A DNA stretch of 64,000 nucleotides from a gamma proteobacterium symbiont of Stewartia floridana (GTDB lineage Bacteria > Pseudomonadota > Gammaproteobacteria > Chromatiales > Chromatiaceae). Where the stretch lies: contig NAUB01000027.1 of assembly GCA_003676145.1 (NCBI GenBank), positions 62,001 through 126,000 of the forward strand, read 5' to 3'. The notes beneath the pieces were generated by a model, which was not told the origin of the DNA, searched no databases, and saw nothing but the letters and a program-made list of their open reading frames with translations. A program made the translations under genes and the position numbers. Shown piece by piece: positions 22,188 through 27,639 of this stretch (position 1 is the first letter of the stretch; each line of letters begins with the position of its first letter).

Positions 22188-22943
22188 TTATGCTGGTTGG
22201 TAGTTCAGTGTATCCATCAGATCTATCATGAATTCCATCTCTTCATCAGGCACATTCTCCCAATGATTAAATCCCATGGAGTCCATCACACCAGCGCCTT
22301 TACTATTACCCTTCATTGACAAAAGGTGCCGAGACAGAAGATCCCGATGTTCTTTCAACTGCGGCCCTACCAAAAGTGTGTGGTGCATTACATTGATCTG
22401 ACTTCTTACCAATACTCTGAGCTTCTGTTTTGTTAATCGAGAAAGTGATTGGTAAGCCTCGACCAGAAAAAAACCAATGTCAGCTTTACCATTGATCAAT
22501 GTTTTGGCAACCAGTGGATAACTACCCATGATTAGCCTTTGTTTGCCGGAATTATGAATCTCAGCCGGCTCCAACATAATATCGCAGATAAGATTGACAT
22601 CAGGGTCTTCAGTAAGCGCAATCACTGTATCCATACCTAATGTTTCAATATCTTCAATACTACTTGATTGATTTACCGCAATTATCGCCTCATCTGAAGT
22701 CTGCCCGGGCCTAGCCACAGGAATAAAACCTTTATCCCTAACCAACATCGAGGCGTCATATGGATTGGCATAGATTAAATCTATTTGATCGTCTCCTATG
22801 GCCTTACGTTGTTGTTTAAAGTTATCGTAGAGTTCAAGGTGTATAGGCAGCTGAAGACTCTTTTGTAACCAAGTATTAAAGATATACCATCCACCTATAT
22901 GATCTGGTGTAAAATCTGGACTTACCGTCATTCTATACGACAT
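22188..22943 (-). CDS. PhnD-like binding-protein domain without signal peptide
   Basis: A 251-residue protein resembling PhnD-type binding proteins (DLIYANPYDASMLVRDKGF, ADIGFFLVEAYQ). It starts directly at the mature fold (MSYRMTVSPDF) with no export signal, so it is probably cytoplasmic. It is the last gene of an eight-gene minus-strand operon, 12 bp after the PAS gene. It could be a small-molecule sensor feeding the operon's GTPase module. An alternative is a signal lost secondarily; no upstream in-frame start adding a hydrophobic segment was found. Confidence 0.75.
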   Translation of the reverse strand: MSYRMTVSPDFTPDHIGGWYIFNTWLQKSLQLPIHLELYDNFKQQRKAIGDDQIDLIYANPYDASMLVRDKGFIPVARPGQTSDEAIIAVNQSSSIEDIETLGMDTVIALTEDPDVNLICDIMLEPAEIHNSGKQRLIMGSYPLVAKTLINGKADIGFFLVEAYQSLSRLTKQKLRVLVRSQINVMHHTLLVGPQLKEHRDLLSRHLLSMKGNSKGAGVMDSMGFNHWENVPDEEMEFMIDLMDTLNYQPA

Positions 22944-22955
22944 AGCTTTTAACCG

Positions 22956-23429
22956 TTAAAAAAGTGTTGGATAAGTTTCAATACACTCTTCCACCTTACG
23001 CCGAGCCGGCTTTCGTCTTACTGAAGTAAAACCGGTTATTCTTCCTTCCCTTACGTTTGGTATTACCACTGCAAGCACCCAATAGTACCCACCATCTTTG
23101 CGTAAATTTTTGACATACCCATGCCACTTATCACCCTTTTCAATGGTATCCCACAGCCCCTTGAAGGCAGCTGATGGCATATCCGGATGTCTTAAGATAT
23201 AGTGCGGTTGACCAACAAGTTCCTCCTCACTGTAACCTGACATTTCGACAAACGACTGGTTTACATGAGTGATAATGCCTGCCGCATCGGTACGGGAGAC
23301 GATTAATCTACCATCTTGAAATGGCGTTTCTTTTTCTGTTACAAGTACTTTACGTCGACTGCCATCATTGAAGATAAGGATTTTCTCTATGTAATTACCA
23401 TTAATATCTTCAGGTTCCATATCTTGCAT
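22956..23429 (-). CDS. Single-domain PAS protein of the Aer type
   Basis: A 157-residue protein using the ATG at 23429, preceded by GAGG at 8 nt; a GTG 45 nt upstream is less likely. One PAS domain closely follows the Aer redox sensor pattern: SRTDAAGIITHVNQSFVEM, then GQPHYILRHPDMP, then YVKNLRKDGGYYWVLAVV. Aer PAS domains bind FAD and report redox state or electron flow, so FAD binding is likely here, though unproven. There is no membrane, HAMP or methyl-accepting part, so the signal must pass to a partner, probably within this operon. Confidence 0.85.
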   Translation of the reverse strand: MQDMEPEDINGNYIEKILIFNDGSRRKVLVTEKETPFQDGRLIVSRTDAAGIITHVNQSFVEMSGYSEEELVGQPHYILRHPDMPSAAFKGLWDTIEKGDKWHGYVKNLRKDGGYYWVLAVVIPNVREGRITGFTSVRRKPARRKVEECIETYPTLF

Positions 23430-23546
23430 TATCAAATGCCTCAAACAAAAAGAGAGCCCAACAACAGTAACCACTAACTACACTGTAGTTTTTCGGCTGC
23501 AGTCGCGTCCATGCCACCGCATCAATGTGATACACGCAAAGTCTTA

Positions 23547-23909
23547 TCAAATTACTTTAGATATTGCTTCAGCCGCTCTTTTTATATCCAAAAACACCAA
23601 ACCGAGTTTTGCTGTTGATTTCGCTTGAACAGAGACTACCGCCTCTTCGCCTGCATGAGTCATGACCACATAGCCCTGACTTCCTTTTATAAGCACCATC
23701 TCCAAACTCCCTCGTGTCAATTCAGAAGCTGTCCTATCACCCAGGGATAACATTGCCGCACTCATCGCACCGACACGGTCCTCATCCAAATTGGCAGGCA
23801 ACAATGACGCCATGATCAAACCATCCGTTGATATTACCGCAGAGGCTTCAATATCAGCTGAACTCCCGTTTAAATCACTTAGAATCGATGCGAGCATATC
23901 TTCGCGCAT
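23547..23909 (-). CDS. Roadblock/LC7-domain protein (MglB-like)
   Basis: A 120-residue protein made of one Roadblock/LC7 domain (ASAVISTDGLIMASLLP, then SLGDRTASELTRGSLEMVLIKGSQGYVVM). The ATG has GGAG upstream. In bacteria such proteins act as partners or GTPase-activating factors of MglA-type small GTPases, and one is encoded three genes upstream. Length is typical. It lies 42 bp after the protoglobin gene. Confidence 0.88.
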   Translation of the reverse strand: MREDMLASILSDLNGSSADIEASAVISTDGLIMASLLPANLDEDRVGAMSAAMLSLGDRTASELTRGSLEMVLIKGSQGYVVMTHAGEEAVVSVQAKSTAKLGLVFLDIKRAAEAISKVI

Positions 23910-23951
23910 TTTTCTACTCCTTTAATAAAACTCATTAACTTATTCCAATAA

Positions 23952-24515
23952 CTACTCTTTGTAAGCACTTGCAAGATTGTCGAAAAGTGTGCGACTCATG
24001 CCAGTTATTTTCAAAAACTTTTCCAACTCTTCAGCCAACCTGGAGGATTCATAGGATTGCTGCATGACCATCAAGGTAAAACCCAGAATTGAGTTCACTG
24101 CGCTAACCGACTCGATCAGTTTTTCCGGTTCATCTTTAAATATCGTACCGAGCAACTGATGCAGTCGGGTTGTTATCAGAGCCATTGACCCCGCCATGAA
24201 CTCCACTGGCAATTCCGCCTTCACATGCACATCACCGACTCGATACATCGCTTTCACATAGTCCAATTCGAAAGGCCCACTAAAAACAGATTCCATCCAT
24301 CTGTTATGGGTCTCTTTCAAAGCATCAAGCCTATCAATGAGAAACGGTTCTGCCTTTGGTATATCCAGCAGTACCGTATAGAAGCTGTCTGTTACCTCTG
24401 CCATATGGGGCTTTACACGTTCATAAAGCCCCTGCAGTGTGTTCTCCATATCCTCAGTTACACCTGAGAACTGCTTGGCATATTGCAATAACTGTTCATA
24501 TTCACGATCATCCAT
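23952..24515 (-). CDS. Protoglobin-like haem sensor
   Basis: A 187-residue all-helical protein resembling protoglobins and the N-terminal part of globin-coupled sensors: LKETHNRWMESVF followed by LDYVKAMYRVGDVHVKAELP. His97 in GDVHVK lies where the proximal haem ligand of protoglobins is found, so O2, CO or NO sensing is plausible. There is no fused output domain, and the C-terminal ~40 residues form one more helix. It overlaps the preceding gene by 8 bp and sits between two Roadblock-type genes, so it probably signals through them. Confidence 0.8.
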   Translation of the reverse strand: MDDREYEQLLQYAKQFSGVTEDMENTLQGLYERVKPHMAEVTDSFYTVLLDIPKAEPFLIDRLDALKETHNRWMESVFSGPFELDYVKAMYRVGDVHVKAELPVEFMAGSMALITTRLHQLLGTIFKDEPEKLIESVSAVNSILGFTLMVMQQSYESSRLAEELEKFLKITGMSRTLFDNLASAYKE

Positions 24516-25170
24516 TAGATGAACTGCCCCTTATATTAAACGTTTCGGAATAACGTAGTAACAAAACCCATATCAGATCCCTGAAAGAAGGCTGATTCAG
24601 TGTTGGTCTACCCTGGATAATAAGTACAAATCGCTGTTTACCGATGTAGATTGGCCAAAATCCCAGCTGACTGTTACCCGCTGCATCGGAAAGCGCCCAG
24701 GCCTGAACATCGAGAGACAGATTGTTTTTTAACAACAGTCGATGCCGGTCATAGAGCGAGCCAAGGTCCGCACTGACAGCCGAAAGCGCCTCAGCTGCTT
24801 CGTGAGGGAAGCTACTGGTACTAAGATAGAAACCTTGATCATCCGCAAGTAGCGCTTTACCCTCAACCGATACCTTGGCCAATAGATCTGGTAACACATC
24901 TTCAAGAGAGCCTTCAGGTGCAGTCAATTGAGTTTCATTGCCGGAAAGCAGTGACATATCCTGTAACCGTTTGATCAAACTCATGGTGTCCGTTTCTGAC
25001 TCACCACTCCAATGGGATATTCGAGTGACGTCTGATGACGGCAAACTGTTTTCACTCATCACTCCGATCAGGACACGTCTGGCTGGTTCATCGTGGCTTG
25101 AACTGACTGCATAATAGGCACCTGCTGGTGTTGGCTCCAGGTATATTCCAGTTCTAAGATTGAGATTCAT
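24508..25170 (-). CDS. Roadblock-like protein of unknown function
   Basis: A 220-residue cytoplasmic protein. Its C-terminal half (KALLADDQGFYLSTSSFP ... LGFWPIYIGKQRFVLIIQG) resembles a diverged Roadblock/LC7 fold. Its N-terminal half is unrecognised, and DVTRISHWSGESETDTMSLI is its most distinctive stretch. It starts 1 bp after the GTPase stop and overlaps the protoglobin start by 8 bp, so tight coupling with both is expected. Probable role: GTPase partner or adaptor. The Roadblock assignment is tentative. Confidence 0.7.
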   Translation of the reverse strand: MNLNLRTGIYLEPTPAGAYYAVSSSHDEPARRVLIGVMSENSLPSSDVTRISHWSGESETDTMSLIKRLQDMSLLSGNETQLTAPEGSLEDVLPDLLAKVSVEGKALLADDQGFYLSTSSFPHEAAEALSAVSADLGSLYDRHRLLLKNNLSLDVQAWALSDAAGNSQLGFWPIYIGKQRFVLIIQGRPTLNQPSFRDLIWVLLLRYSETFNIRGSSSNG

Positions 25171-25171
25171 A

Positions 25172-25711
25172 CTATTCTGCTACAGTTGGATCAATTGTGT
25201 AGAGCAGAGACTGAACTAACATTGACATATCTTCTTTTTCCCTTGCATCGACTTCCATTATGGGAAGCACAGGCCACCCCATGGCGGTAATTTCACGATG
25301 ATAGTCATCGATTTCCGGATGAGATTTTTCATCCATTCGGGTTATCCCGATAGAGATCGCTGTCCTGTGAATAAAGCTCTTGAATGCATCAAGAAAGAAA
25401 TAGAGATCCTGAAAAGGCTCCTTTCTGGAGTTATCGATCAGTAGAACCAACCCAAGGCCACCTTGCGTCAGAACTTCCCACATAAAATTGAATCGTTCCT
25501 GGCCCGGCGTGCCATAAAGGTGGACCCGTTCTGATTCATTGATACGCATCAACCCGTAGTCCATCGCAACAGTGGTCTGCTGCTTTAGGTCTTTTGTCAT
25601 ATCGGAAGCCATTTCATCCGTTGTGATAGGTACAATATCCGATAACACACTGATCGCTGTGGTTTTACCGGCGCCAACAGGTCCAGTGAATATTATTTTA
25701 TGCTCTGACAT
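25172..25711 (-). CDS. MglA-like / Ras-type small GTPase
   Basis: A 179-residue P-loop NTPase with GPVGAGKTT (residues 10-18), a switch-I region around TTVAMDYG and switch II GTPGQERF. The base-specificity motif reads TRMD in place of NKxD, common in this bacterial family but making guanine preference less certain. Relatives accompany Roadblock proteins in polarity or signalling modules (MglA-MglB; the Streptomyces Cvn conservons). GGAG precedes the ATG. It lies 26 bp after the receiver-like gene, and a Roadblock-like partner begins 1 bp after its stop. Confidence 0.88.
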   Translation of the reverse strand: MSEHKIIFTGPVGAGKTTAISVLSDIVPITTDEMASDMTKDLKQQTTVAMDYGLMRINESERVHLYGTPGQERFNFMWEVLTQGGLGLVLLIDNSRKEPFQDLYFFLDAFKSFIHRTAISIGITRMDEKSHPEIDDYHREITAMGWPVLPIMEVDAREKEDMSMLVQSLLYTIDPTVAE

Positions 25712-25737
25712 TCGTTCTCCAGTACCACTTGAAGTAA

Positions 25738-26940
25738 TTACATCGATTGTAAACGTCTCAAAATACGCCTCAGAAATCCTGTCTTGACCACACCTGTGGA
25801 TAACTGATCTGTCTGATTACTATGTTGCTGATAAGAACTGTGAAACTGAATCAAACCCATCGCGTGACAGGCGCTGAAGAAAGCATAAACATAGCCAGTC
25901 TCGATACGCAGGAACTCTACAGTTTTTGCCAGTGAAATCGGATTTTTACTCCATAACGCTGCAATCCTGATGAACTCCGGTATTGCCATCATGCGGGTCA
26001 AATTTGGCCATTGACGGATACCGATATTCACATCTTCAACAGTACCAATTGGCAGTCTGCCCCTGGAACTCCACAGAGAGACCTTCCACAGTAAGGCATC
26101 CAATGATTGCGGATTGGTATCACAACTCAGCAACAACTGCGACTCGCTGTAGTCGGAACTGACCACTTTCACCTGATCTGTATTCAACTTAAGTAAACAA
26201 CGGGGTTTGAGTTTCGAATCACTGATTGCGTTCAGGCATTGATTCGCGTTGGGAAGTATTGTGATGCTCTTTCCATCCTGAAAGACCAGATGTGCAGGTT
26301 TTCTGTTTGATCTGGATATTTCAATCGCATTCTTCAGGATTACCTGAAAGTTACTCTCATGATTGTAAAAAACTGATTTTTTGCCGATTACAGGCTGATC
26401 ATTCTCTTTCCGGTTACTCTTTCCACAGGTGCTCTCGATAAACCGTGCCTGCGATGCTGCAGAAGGCACTGACAAGCGCCTTTTATTTTCACCCGATGAT
26501 TGATATTGCCATTCAGATGCAAGCCCCTGCTGTTTAGCTGGCTTCGTTGTCGGAGAGACACGGATAATGCGCTCTGCTTCCGGCTTTGATTTCTCTATCC
26601 TAATGCAATCTTGAAGTATCTCGCTGCGACAGACATCGATGGTCTGTTTCAATAGCTCGGTCCGTAATGGTTTGCGTAGAACTCGCACACCATCGATTGA
26701 CATATCATGCACAGACAGAACAATCAGGGGTCGATCATTATATTCACTCTGTTGCTTCTCCAATAAACGATTACCCTCGATACCATCGAGATCCAGTATG
26801 CAGAGTTTTGCAAGATGATCCGGAACCACAATACACTGAGTCGACCAGTACCTCTTGAGGAACATCTCCATCATAGGCTGATCTTTACCATTCAATCCCA
26901 GCAGGGCTATGCCCATCGGTTCATGATTTGCAAACAGCAT
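25738..26940 (-). CDS. Receiver-like protein with C-terminal helical domain
   Basis: A 400-residue protein. Residues ~1-105 look like a degenerate response-regulator receiver: the paired N-terminal acids are missing, but Asp in LCILDLDG (D50/D52) and a Lys-Pro in VLRKPLR remain. A low-complexity linker (~110-200) follows. The C-terminal ~150 residues (RIAALWSKNPISLAKTVEFL, then YVYAFFSACHAMGLI) look like a winged-helix-type domain. It starts 3 bp after the preceding stop. Likely an adaptor or regulator of the GTPase module. Function is unknown. Confidence 0.7.
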   Translation of the reverse strand: MLFANHEPMGIALLGLNGKDQPMMEMFLKRYWSTQCIVVPDHLAKLCILDLDGIEGNRLLEKQQSEYNDRPLIVLSVHDMSIDGVRVLRKPLRTELLKQTIDVCRSEILQDCIRIEKSKPEAERIIRVSPTTKPAKQQGLASEWQYQSSGENKRRLSVPSAASQARFIESTCGKSNRKENDQPVIGKKSVFYNHESNFQVILKNAIEISRSNRKPAHLVFQDGKSITILPNANQCLNAISDSKLKPRCLLKLNTDQVKVVSSDYSESQLLLSCDTNPQSLDALLWKVSLWSSRGRLPIGTVEDVNIGIRQWPNLTRMMAIPEFIRIAALWSKNPISLAKTVEFLRIETGYVYAFFSACHAMGLIQFHSSYQQHSNQTDQLSTGVVKTGFLRRILRRLQSM

Positions 26941-26943
26941 TTA

Positions 26944-27639
26944 TCATCCTTGAGATTCTAGATATTTTCGGGTCTTCGTCCATGCAGACTCTGCTACCTT
27001 GATCTGCTCACCTAAGCGATCCTGCATCTTTAACAGATCACTGAGGGAGTGTGTGTGCTGGTAGATTTCCAGTAAACCAAAATGTAAGCTCATACGGTCA
27101 GGTGATACCAAGAGTGCATTTTCAAGTATCTCCTGCGCAACAGATATATCACCAAAAGTCAACTCTTCCTGAGCCAACGCTAGTGGATCCACACCACTAC
27201 CTGCTTGCTCATCAGATTTAGTATCCACATCTATCAGTGTCAAACCACCATCAAAAAAGTTCGCCAATACAGAATGTTGGCTGATCGGATAGGGTTGATT
27301 TTTCTGCAGTCCCTGTTTCAGATTTTTGACAAACAGCTCAAAGATCTCTTTATCCAGGATTGTTTTTGCTTTTTTTAACAGCCCTTTGCGTAAGGATTCT
27401 CCTCTATCTCCTAACACCAGGAACAGATCCAGCATGGCACCGTAGAGCTCCTCCGTCTGTCGTAATTCCAGATGAAGATAGACTCTTCTTACATGATTCA
27501 GTAGATTTTCAGGTTCACGCGCGGAACGGTAAGCTAAGTGATTTGCCCATAACCGAGGCTCCACTTCTTTAGGTGATTTAAGCCCTTGATGCGTGGGTTC
27601 ATGGAATGTTAGCTGAGATGATTGATGAGGTGATTTCAA
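26944..27639 (-). CDS. First gene of the GTPase operon, TPR/FimV-C-like protein
   Basis: A 231-residue cytoplasmic protein. The C-terminal segment (LALAQEELTFGDISVAQEIL and following helices) resembles the TPR-like C-terminal repeat of FimV-type proteins. Residues ~30-120 are helical and unrecognised. The only available start near the N-terminus is TTG at 27639 with no good ribosome site, so the true start is uncertain; the next Met is at about residue 68. It leads an operon of eight genes with gaps of 117 bp or less. Probably a scaffold. Confidence 0.65.
   Translation of the reverse strand: MKSPHQSSQLTFHEPTHQGLKSPKEVEPRLWANHLAYRSAREPENLLNHVRRVYLHLELRQTEELYGAMLDLFLVLGDRGESLRKGLLKKAKTILDKEIFELFVKNLKQGLQKNQPYPISQHSVLANFFDGGLTLIDVDTKSDEQAGSGVDPLALAQEELTFGDISVAQEILENALLVSPDRMSLHFGLLEIYQHTHSLSDLLKMQDRLGEQIKVAESAWTKTRKYLESQG

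Follow-up and report, generated by a model that had tools for sequence, protein, structure and literature searches.

The window analyzed here, a 64-kb stretch of DNA from the genome of a "Candidatus Thiodiazotropha" species, a clam symbiont, carries an eight-gene operon in which a small GTPase of the MglA type is encoded together with two Roadblock proteins and a set of stand-alone sensor proteins. Judged by its motifs and gene content, the core of this operon, namely a receiver/winged helix-turn-helix (wHTH) protein, the GTPase, and both Roadblock proteins, is of the known Group 3 MglA kind. This group was described as comprising beta- and gamma-proteobacterial GTPases with an unusual G4 motif and a DAR G5 motif, whose partners are one or two Roadblock proteins and a receiver-like/wHTH protein (Wuichet & Søgaard-Andersen 2014, PMC4316618). 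The new element is the full conserved unit inclusive of the sensor genes, and it is the sensor part that has apparently gone undescribed. The original prediction, which envisaged a possibly undescribed sensory system, must thus be narrowed, since the core matches a type reported in 2014; the combination of these sensors with the GTPase, for its part, was not found in the open-licence literature, although subscription journals or the supplement of the 2014 study could hold a description. The same literature yielded no Group 3 paper with these sensors for Xanthomonas, Acinetobacter, Methylococcales, or Thiodiazotropha.

Conservation of the operon as a unit

Eight open reading frames (ORFs), all on the minus strand, lie head to tail at positions 22188-27639 of the window (Table 1) and are separated, from gene 1 to gene 8, by gaps of 3, 26, 1, -8, 42, 72, and 12 bases; promoter and terminator scans gave a signal at or below shuffled background. 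Three sets of loci were compared: the copies within the genus, those of the 80 named species nearest to the query (a set thus biased towards near relatives, and with many metagenome bins), and 40 loci of a class-wide sample that covers one class by design. The gene order TPR-REC/wHTH-GTPase-RblA-RblB-PAS-PBPc, where RblA and RblB are the Roadblock proteins and PBPc the PhnD-like binding protein, is kept in Methylococcales, Thiothrix, Sphaerotilus, Halothiobacillus, and others, and the hosts of the 80 nearest loci, where recognisable, are all beta- or gamma-proteobacteria. The genes are therefore conserved as a unit in many families, and not as separate genes only, which bears out the single eight-gene operon that had been predicted and indicates that the arrangement is not due to chance.

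The linkage between sensors and core is most apparent in the 94 loci that offer one GTPase gene, both Roadblock genes, and enough sequence (hereafter 1:2 loci). PAS and PBPc occur together in 68 of these and are both missing from 25, the single remaining locus carrying PAS with a PBPc below threshold; neither is found at the 21 loci that have no Roadblock pair. Within a sample of 370 genomes, PBPc proper (threshold E < 1e-70) is present in 18, and lies within 3 kb of the GTPase gene in 16 of them; as for the other two, one contig starts inside the operon and one operon (L172) has no GTPase gene. PAS and PBPc are a fixed pair that is tied to the operon. At the other end of the unit, the TPR gene is kept in 88/88 of the 1:2 loci with enough upstream sequence and the receiver gene in 87/88, and the GTPase gene lies within four genes of the MglB-type Roadblock gene(s). 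The protoglobin, unlike the PAS/PBPc pair, is an optional insert, present in 19/94 of the 1:2 loci, where it separates the Roadblock genes or immediately precedes the PAS gene. The proposed combination of three input domains with one small GTPase is borne out in that several stand-alone proteins of sensor type are linked to it, but the three are not equal, the PAS/PBPc pair being fixed and the globin optional.

Core proteins, sensors, and variant loci

Domains were assigned through Pfam and PDB profile searches and, for genes 2 and 4, through AlphaFold models; the resulting assignments (Table 1) agree with the gene contents originally predicted.

Table 1. Genes of the operon (positions refer to the 64-kb window)
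Gene	Product	Position	Strand	Basis
gene 1	TPR-like protein, 231 aa, FimV-like C-terminal repeats	26944..27639	-	profile comparison
gene 2	atypical receiver (8-117), linker, C-terminal domain with wHTH, 400 aa	25738..26940	-	AlphaFold model
gene 3	MglA-type small GTPase, Group 3 features	25172..25711	-	Pfam and motifs
gene 4	RblA: wHTH-like N-terminal domain and Roadblock domain	24508..25170	-	AlphaFold model
gene 5	stand-alone protoglobin, conserved C-terminal tail 160-187, optional insert	23952..24515	-	Pfam
gene 6	RblB, MglB-type Roadblock protein	23547..23909	-	Pfam
gene 7	stand-alone Aer-type PAS domain	22956..23474	-	Pfam and PDB
gene 8	PBPc: signal-less PhnD-like binding protein, conserved C-terminal EFMIDLMDTL-type helix	22188..22943	-	Pfam

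The GTPase matches the Pfam families ATP_bind_1 (E 3e-11) and Ras (3e-5). Among 99 aligned sequences its G4 motif is T-x-M-D, devoid of lysine, with T124, M126, and D127 near-invariant and Q or R at position 125, and its G5 motif is DAR (D155, A156, and R157 in 98-99/99). RblB, a match to Robl_LC7 (E 3e-13), is the most conserved member of the operon and is encoded by a single copy in the window genome. RblA gave no significant Pfam match, and PDB profile searches with it yielded nothing convincing, with one weak match to CvnB5; its AlphaFold model (pLDDT 93) nevertheless combines a wHTH-like N-terminus, of net negative charge, with a Roadblock domain that superimposes on 3kye (Z 10.5, 109 residues at 3.2 A). 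The protein encoded by gene 2 matched no Pfam family and a PHROGs search was also empty; its receiver fold was recognized in the AlphaFold model (Z 13.5), and the C-terminal helical wHTH region was read from the secondary structure of the same model. Since the receiver retains D52 (49/49), K90 (48/49), and P91 (49/49) but has no acidic pair, its ordinary phosphorylation is uncertain. None of the eight proteins gave a Pfam match to a kinase domain. In gene 2, the presumed recognition helix is aromatic and hydrophobic (typically PQRYVFAFYSAAKA), with a mean of 0.86 K/R per 15 residues, and looks more like a protein-contact surface.

As for the sensors, the PAS protein matches PAS_3 (E 3e-18) and aligns with the PAS structure of Escherichia coli Aer, 8dik, at E 8e-45 over 126 residues, which places it end to end within the Aer FAD-PAS family; comparison with the starts of its relatives suggests that it probably begins at about 23429-23435, rather than at the GTG at 23474, giving a product of about 158 aa. 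PBPc matches Phosphonate-bd (E 2e-34), and since the start of 28/28 homologues coincides with the first strand or barely precedes it, it would have no signal peptide. It also has no oxyanion-binding STS loop, the YGDRASTSS segment of PtxB being aligned with a TDDP-D segment, so that its ligand, if any, is probably neither phosphonate nor phosphite. The globin (187 aa; Protoglobin, E 1e-23) consists of the protoglobin domain and a short tail only, keeps the B-helix FY motif and retains His97, the residue named in the original prediction, which is invariant in 14/14 homologues. In the Ca. T. endolucinida lineage, where the globin is lost, an intact ORF of ~40-47 aa stays between RblA and RblB (about 9113-9256 in L032, with equivalents in L034 and L048); it matches only the globin tail (ITGMSR..L.N), of which the window genome contains no second copy, and may be either a remnant or a microprotein.

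The sensor complement varies further between lineages. Second-copy operons of Thiodiazotropha encode a stand-alone CZB zinc-binding domain and neither PAS nor PBPc; in the window genome, such a copy at the sdh locus (L027:6857-8993, contig C1 of G000) encodes a receiver, a GTPase, and CZB, without a Roadblock or TPR gene. Halothiobacillus-type and related loci include a second signal-less PhnD-like protein. A conserved protein of ~140-145 aa (MDTREI...CKETW), for which no Pfam family was matched, is encoded between RblA and RblB at L060:4277-4723 and in L052, L057, and L080, mostly beside a second PhnD-like gene. At L127:9217-13058, the genes in this position encode a PAS-SpoIIE phosphatase protein and a fusion of STAS and signal-less PhnD-like domains. 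The operon L158:5625-8015, which lacks the RblA/RblB pair, encodes a truncated haemoglobin whose C-terminal part is rich in cysteine, as well as an ABC-ATPase/dual-specificity-phosphatase fusion. The GTPase-less operon L172:7820-13064 is otherwise complete and includes a second PhnD-like gene; in the Neisseria gonorrhoeae record L050:6124-9560, a Group 3 core is present in which the TPR, receiver, and GTPase genes are broken frames. Distant signal-less relatives of PBPc also exist away from the operon in genomes that have the GTPase (L174, L175, L176, and L177), the one in L175 being immediately preceded by a 128-aa protein. Beyond the end of the operon, Methylomonas (L102, L058, L061, and L067) has a gene for a class I adenylate cyclase no more than ~0.7 kb away, and a 5'-nucleotidase gene follows directly at Methyloprofundus-type loci (L055, L056, L059, L070, and L097).

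Proposed mechanism and competing explanations

All 72 genomes positive for the GTPase encode PilT, compared with 317/370 in the full sample (P 4e-6 by a hypergeometric test, uncorrected for relatedness), and only 49/72 encode the flagellar protein FlhA. In Thiothrix- and Sphaerotilus-type operons, moreover, the last gene encodes a FimV/HubP-like protein (FimV_core to E 1e-18, FimV_Cterm to 2e-12), a paralogue that is extra to the normal long FimV of these genomes. In view of the distribution of PilT and of these operon-borne paralogues, the output is most likely type IV pili or cell polarity. Identity with FimV is not claimed for the TPR protein of gene 1: FimV_Cterm remained below cut-off and is absent in the long forms, which in other lineages carry an N-terminal hydrophobic helix.

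The reading we favour, to which we attribute a slightly better than even chance, is that of a Group 3 system (one MglA to two Roadblock proteins) whose cytosolic sensors are separate genes and which acts on pili or polarity. Its gene set, linkage, and fold families were established as described above, and the steps from sensor to Roadblock and from GTPase to pili are those that we infer. The Aer-type PAS would sense the redox state of FAD, PBPc a cytosolic ligand, and the protoglobin, where present, O2, NO, or CO. These sensors could bind the RblA/RblB pair or the wHTH modules, and thereby alter GTPase-activating or exchange activity, so that several signals would set one GTP/GDP state; with GTP bound, the GTPase could then work through two proteins, the FimV-like one with TPRs and the atypical receiver/wHTH protein, to influence where type IV pili are placed, how active they are, or how the cell is polarized. 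The globin, the CZB zinc domain, and the second PhnD-like protein are interchanged across lineages, as would suit a switch with plug-in sensors. A broader proposal, which we advance tentatively and regard as somewhat short of an even chance, is that a Ras-like switch with modular stand-alone sensors for flavin, ligand, haem, and zinc, docking on a Roadblock pair, represents an undescribed general multi-input architecture that is widespread in beta- and gamma-proteobacteria and controls type IV pili and polarity. For MglA-type GTPases beyond those of Myxococcus and Streptomyces, the operon supplies concrete candidates for the sensors that feed signals into the switch, and these occur in methanotrophs that can be cultured and in filamentous sulfur bacteria. 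Were the proposal true, there would be a direct link from the sensing of oxygen and redox state to attachment by pili, in methanotrophs and clam symbionts as well as in bacteria that form flocs or filaments.

A number of points weigh against this reading. The distance matrices of the seven families correlate (r 0.75-0.94), which fits co-inheritance, but plain vertical descent would give the same result. The 80 named loci were taken for their nearness to the query rather than at random, and species do not count as independent observations, so that the P value for PilT, a common protein anyway, is optimistic. The likeness of the TPR protein to FimV is weak, its family profile matching the FimV TPR domain 4mal at E 7e-4 and generic TPRs scoring better, and the clear FimV paralogues are confined to two lineages. 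In the absence of the STS loop, PBPc may bind no ligand at all. Finally, the 2014 study suggested transcriptional output through the wHTH domain.

According to this last suggestion, the complex of GTPase, Roadblock proteins, and sensors would control the receiver-wHTH protein, which would bind DNA and regulate genes. A Phyre2 prediction of receiver and wHTH domains for Group 3 (PMC4316618) is in agreement with it, as is the AlphaFold model of gene 2 with its receiver fold and C-terminal helical region; nevertheless, it is weakened by the hydrophobic recognition helix of gene 2, nearly devoid of K/R, and by the negatively charged wHTH of RblA, and appears unlikely. An output through cyclic di-GMP (c-di-GMP), as originally predicted, would have the operon work with a convergent PhnD-like/GGDEF-EAL pair and a REC-REC-GGDEF-EAL protein, which adjoin it in the window. 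We take this pair to resemble the periplasmic receptor-cyclase pair XAC2383-XAC2382 of Xanthomonas citri, and to be a neighbour rather than a part of the system. Although c-di-GMP generally affects pili and attachment, the window genome shares these neighbours with no more than its two closest relatives; they are missing from other Thiodiazotropha copies, including that of Ca. T. endolucinida, and other loci have no conserved neighbours of this kind, so that little credence is given to this model. It is likewise distinctly improbable that PAS, PBPc, and globin are simply co-transcribed with the GTPase genes and act elsewhere, for instance in chemotaxis or transport. The optional nature of the globin and the usual role of Aer-type PAS domains inside a chemoreceptor would both be accommodated by such loose co-regulation, yet PAS and PBPc are firmly linked both mutually and with the operon, genes for transport or chemotaxis are not regularly found beside them, and the insertion site of the globin gene is either between the two Roadblock genes or immediately after the pair.

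Relation to known systems

Several of the individual parts have known counterparts from which they differ in architecture. The PAS protein belongs to the family of the Aer aerotaxis receptor, but stands alone and has none of the membrane anchor, HAMP, and signalling domains of that receptor; PhnD-type periplasmic binding proteins possess an export signal and an STS-type loop, both missing from PBPc; and in globin-coupled sensors the globin is fused to an output domain, whereas the protoglobin here is unfused. HGbRL of Methylacidiphilum, whose genome also encodes an MglA-like GTPase, is a globin-Roadblock fusion (PMC4476040), and the existence of such a natural fusion makes signalling from globin to Roadblock plausible; it differs in its globin type, in being a single fused chain, and in having no operon of this kind.

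With regard to complete systems, MglA-MglB-RomR of Myxococcus also includes a small GTPase, a Roadblock partner, and a receiver protein, as well as a TPR partner, SgmX, for pili (PMC7519303), but its GTPase is of Group 1, it has no linked sensor genes, and it receives its input from the Frz chemosensory system. The conservons (Cvn) of Streptomyces are likewise operons with a GTPase, a Roadblock protein, and accessory input, which in their case is provided by the membrane histidine kinase CvnA, together with CvnC, whereas no kinase is encoded here. In Snodgrassella, the mgl operon has been placed in Group 3, and a host-adaptive mutation was found in an orphan mglB; a transposon screen cited in the same work indicated that mglB genes benefit gut colonisation, a result discussed in terms of type IV pili (PMC11112851). 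Group 3 MglA itself shares with the operon its GTPase motifs, coupled Roadblock proteins, receiver-like/wHTH partner, and beta- and gamma-proteobacterial hosts; the main text of its description (PMC4316618) names no conserved members beyond these core genes, and the PAS, PhnD-like, globin, CZB, TPR, and FimV parts are those by which the loci described here differ, being either conserved or recurrent among them.

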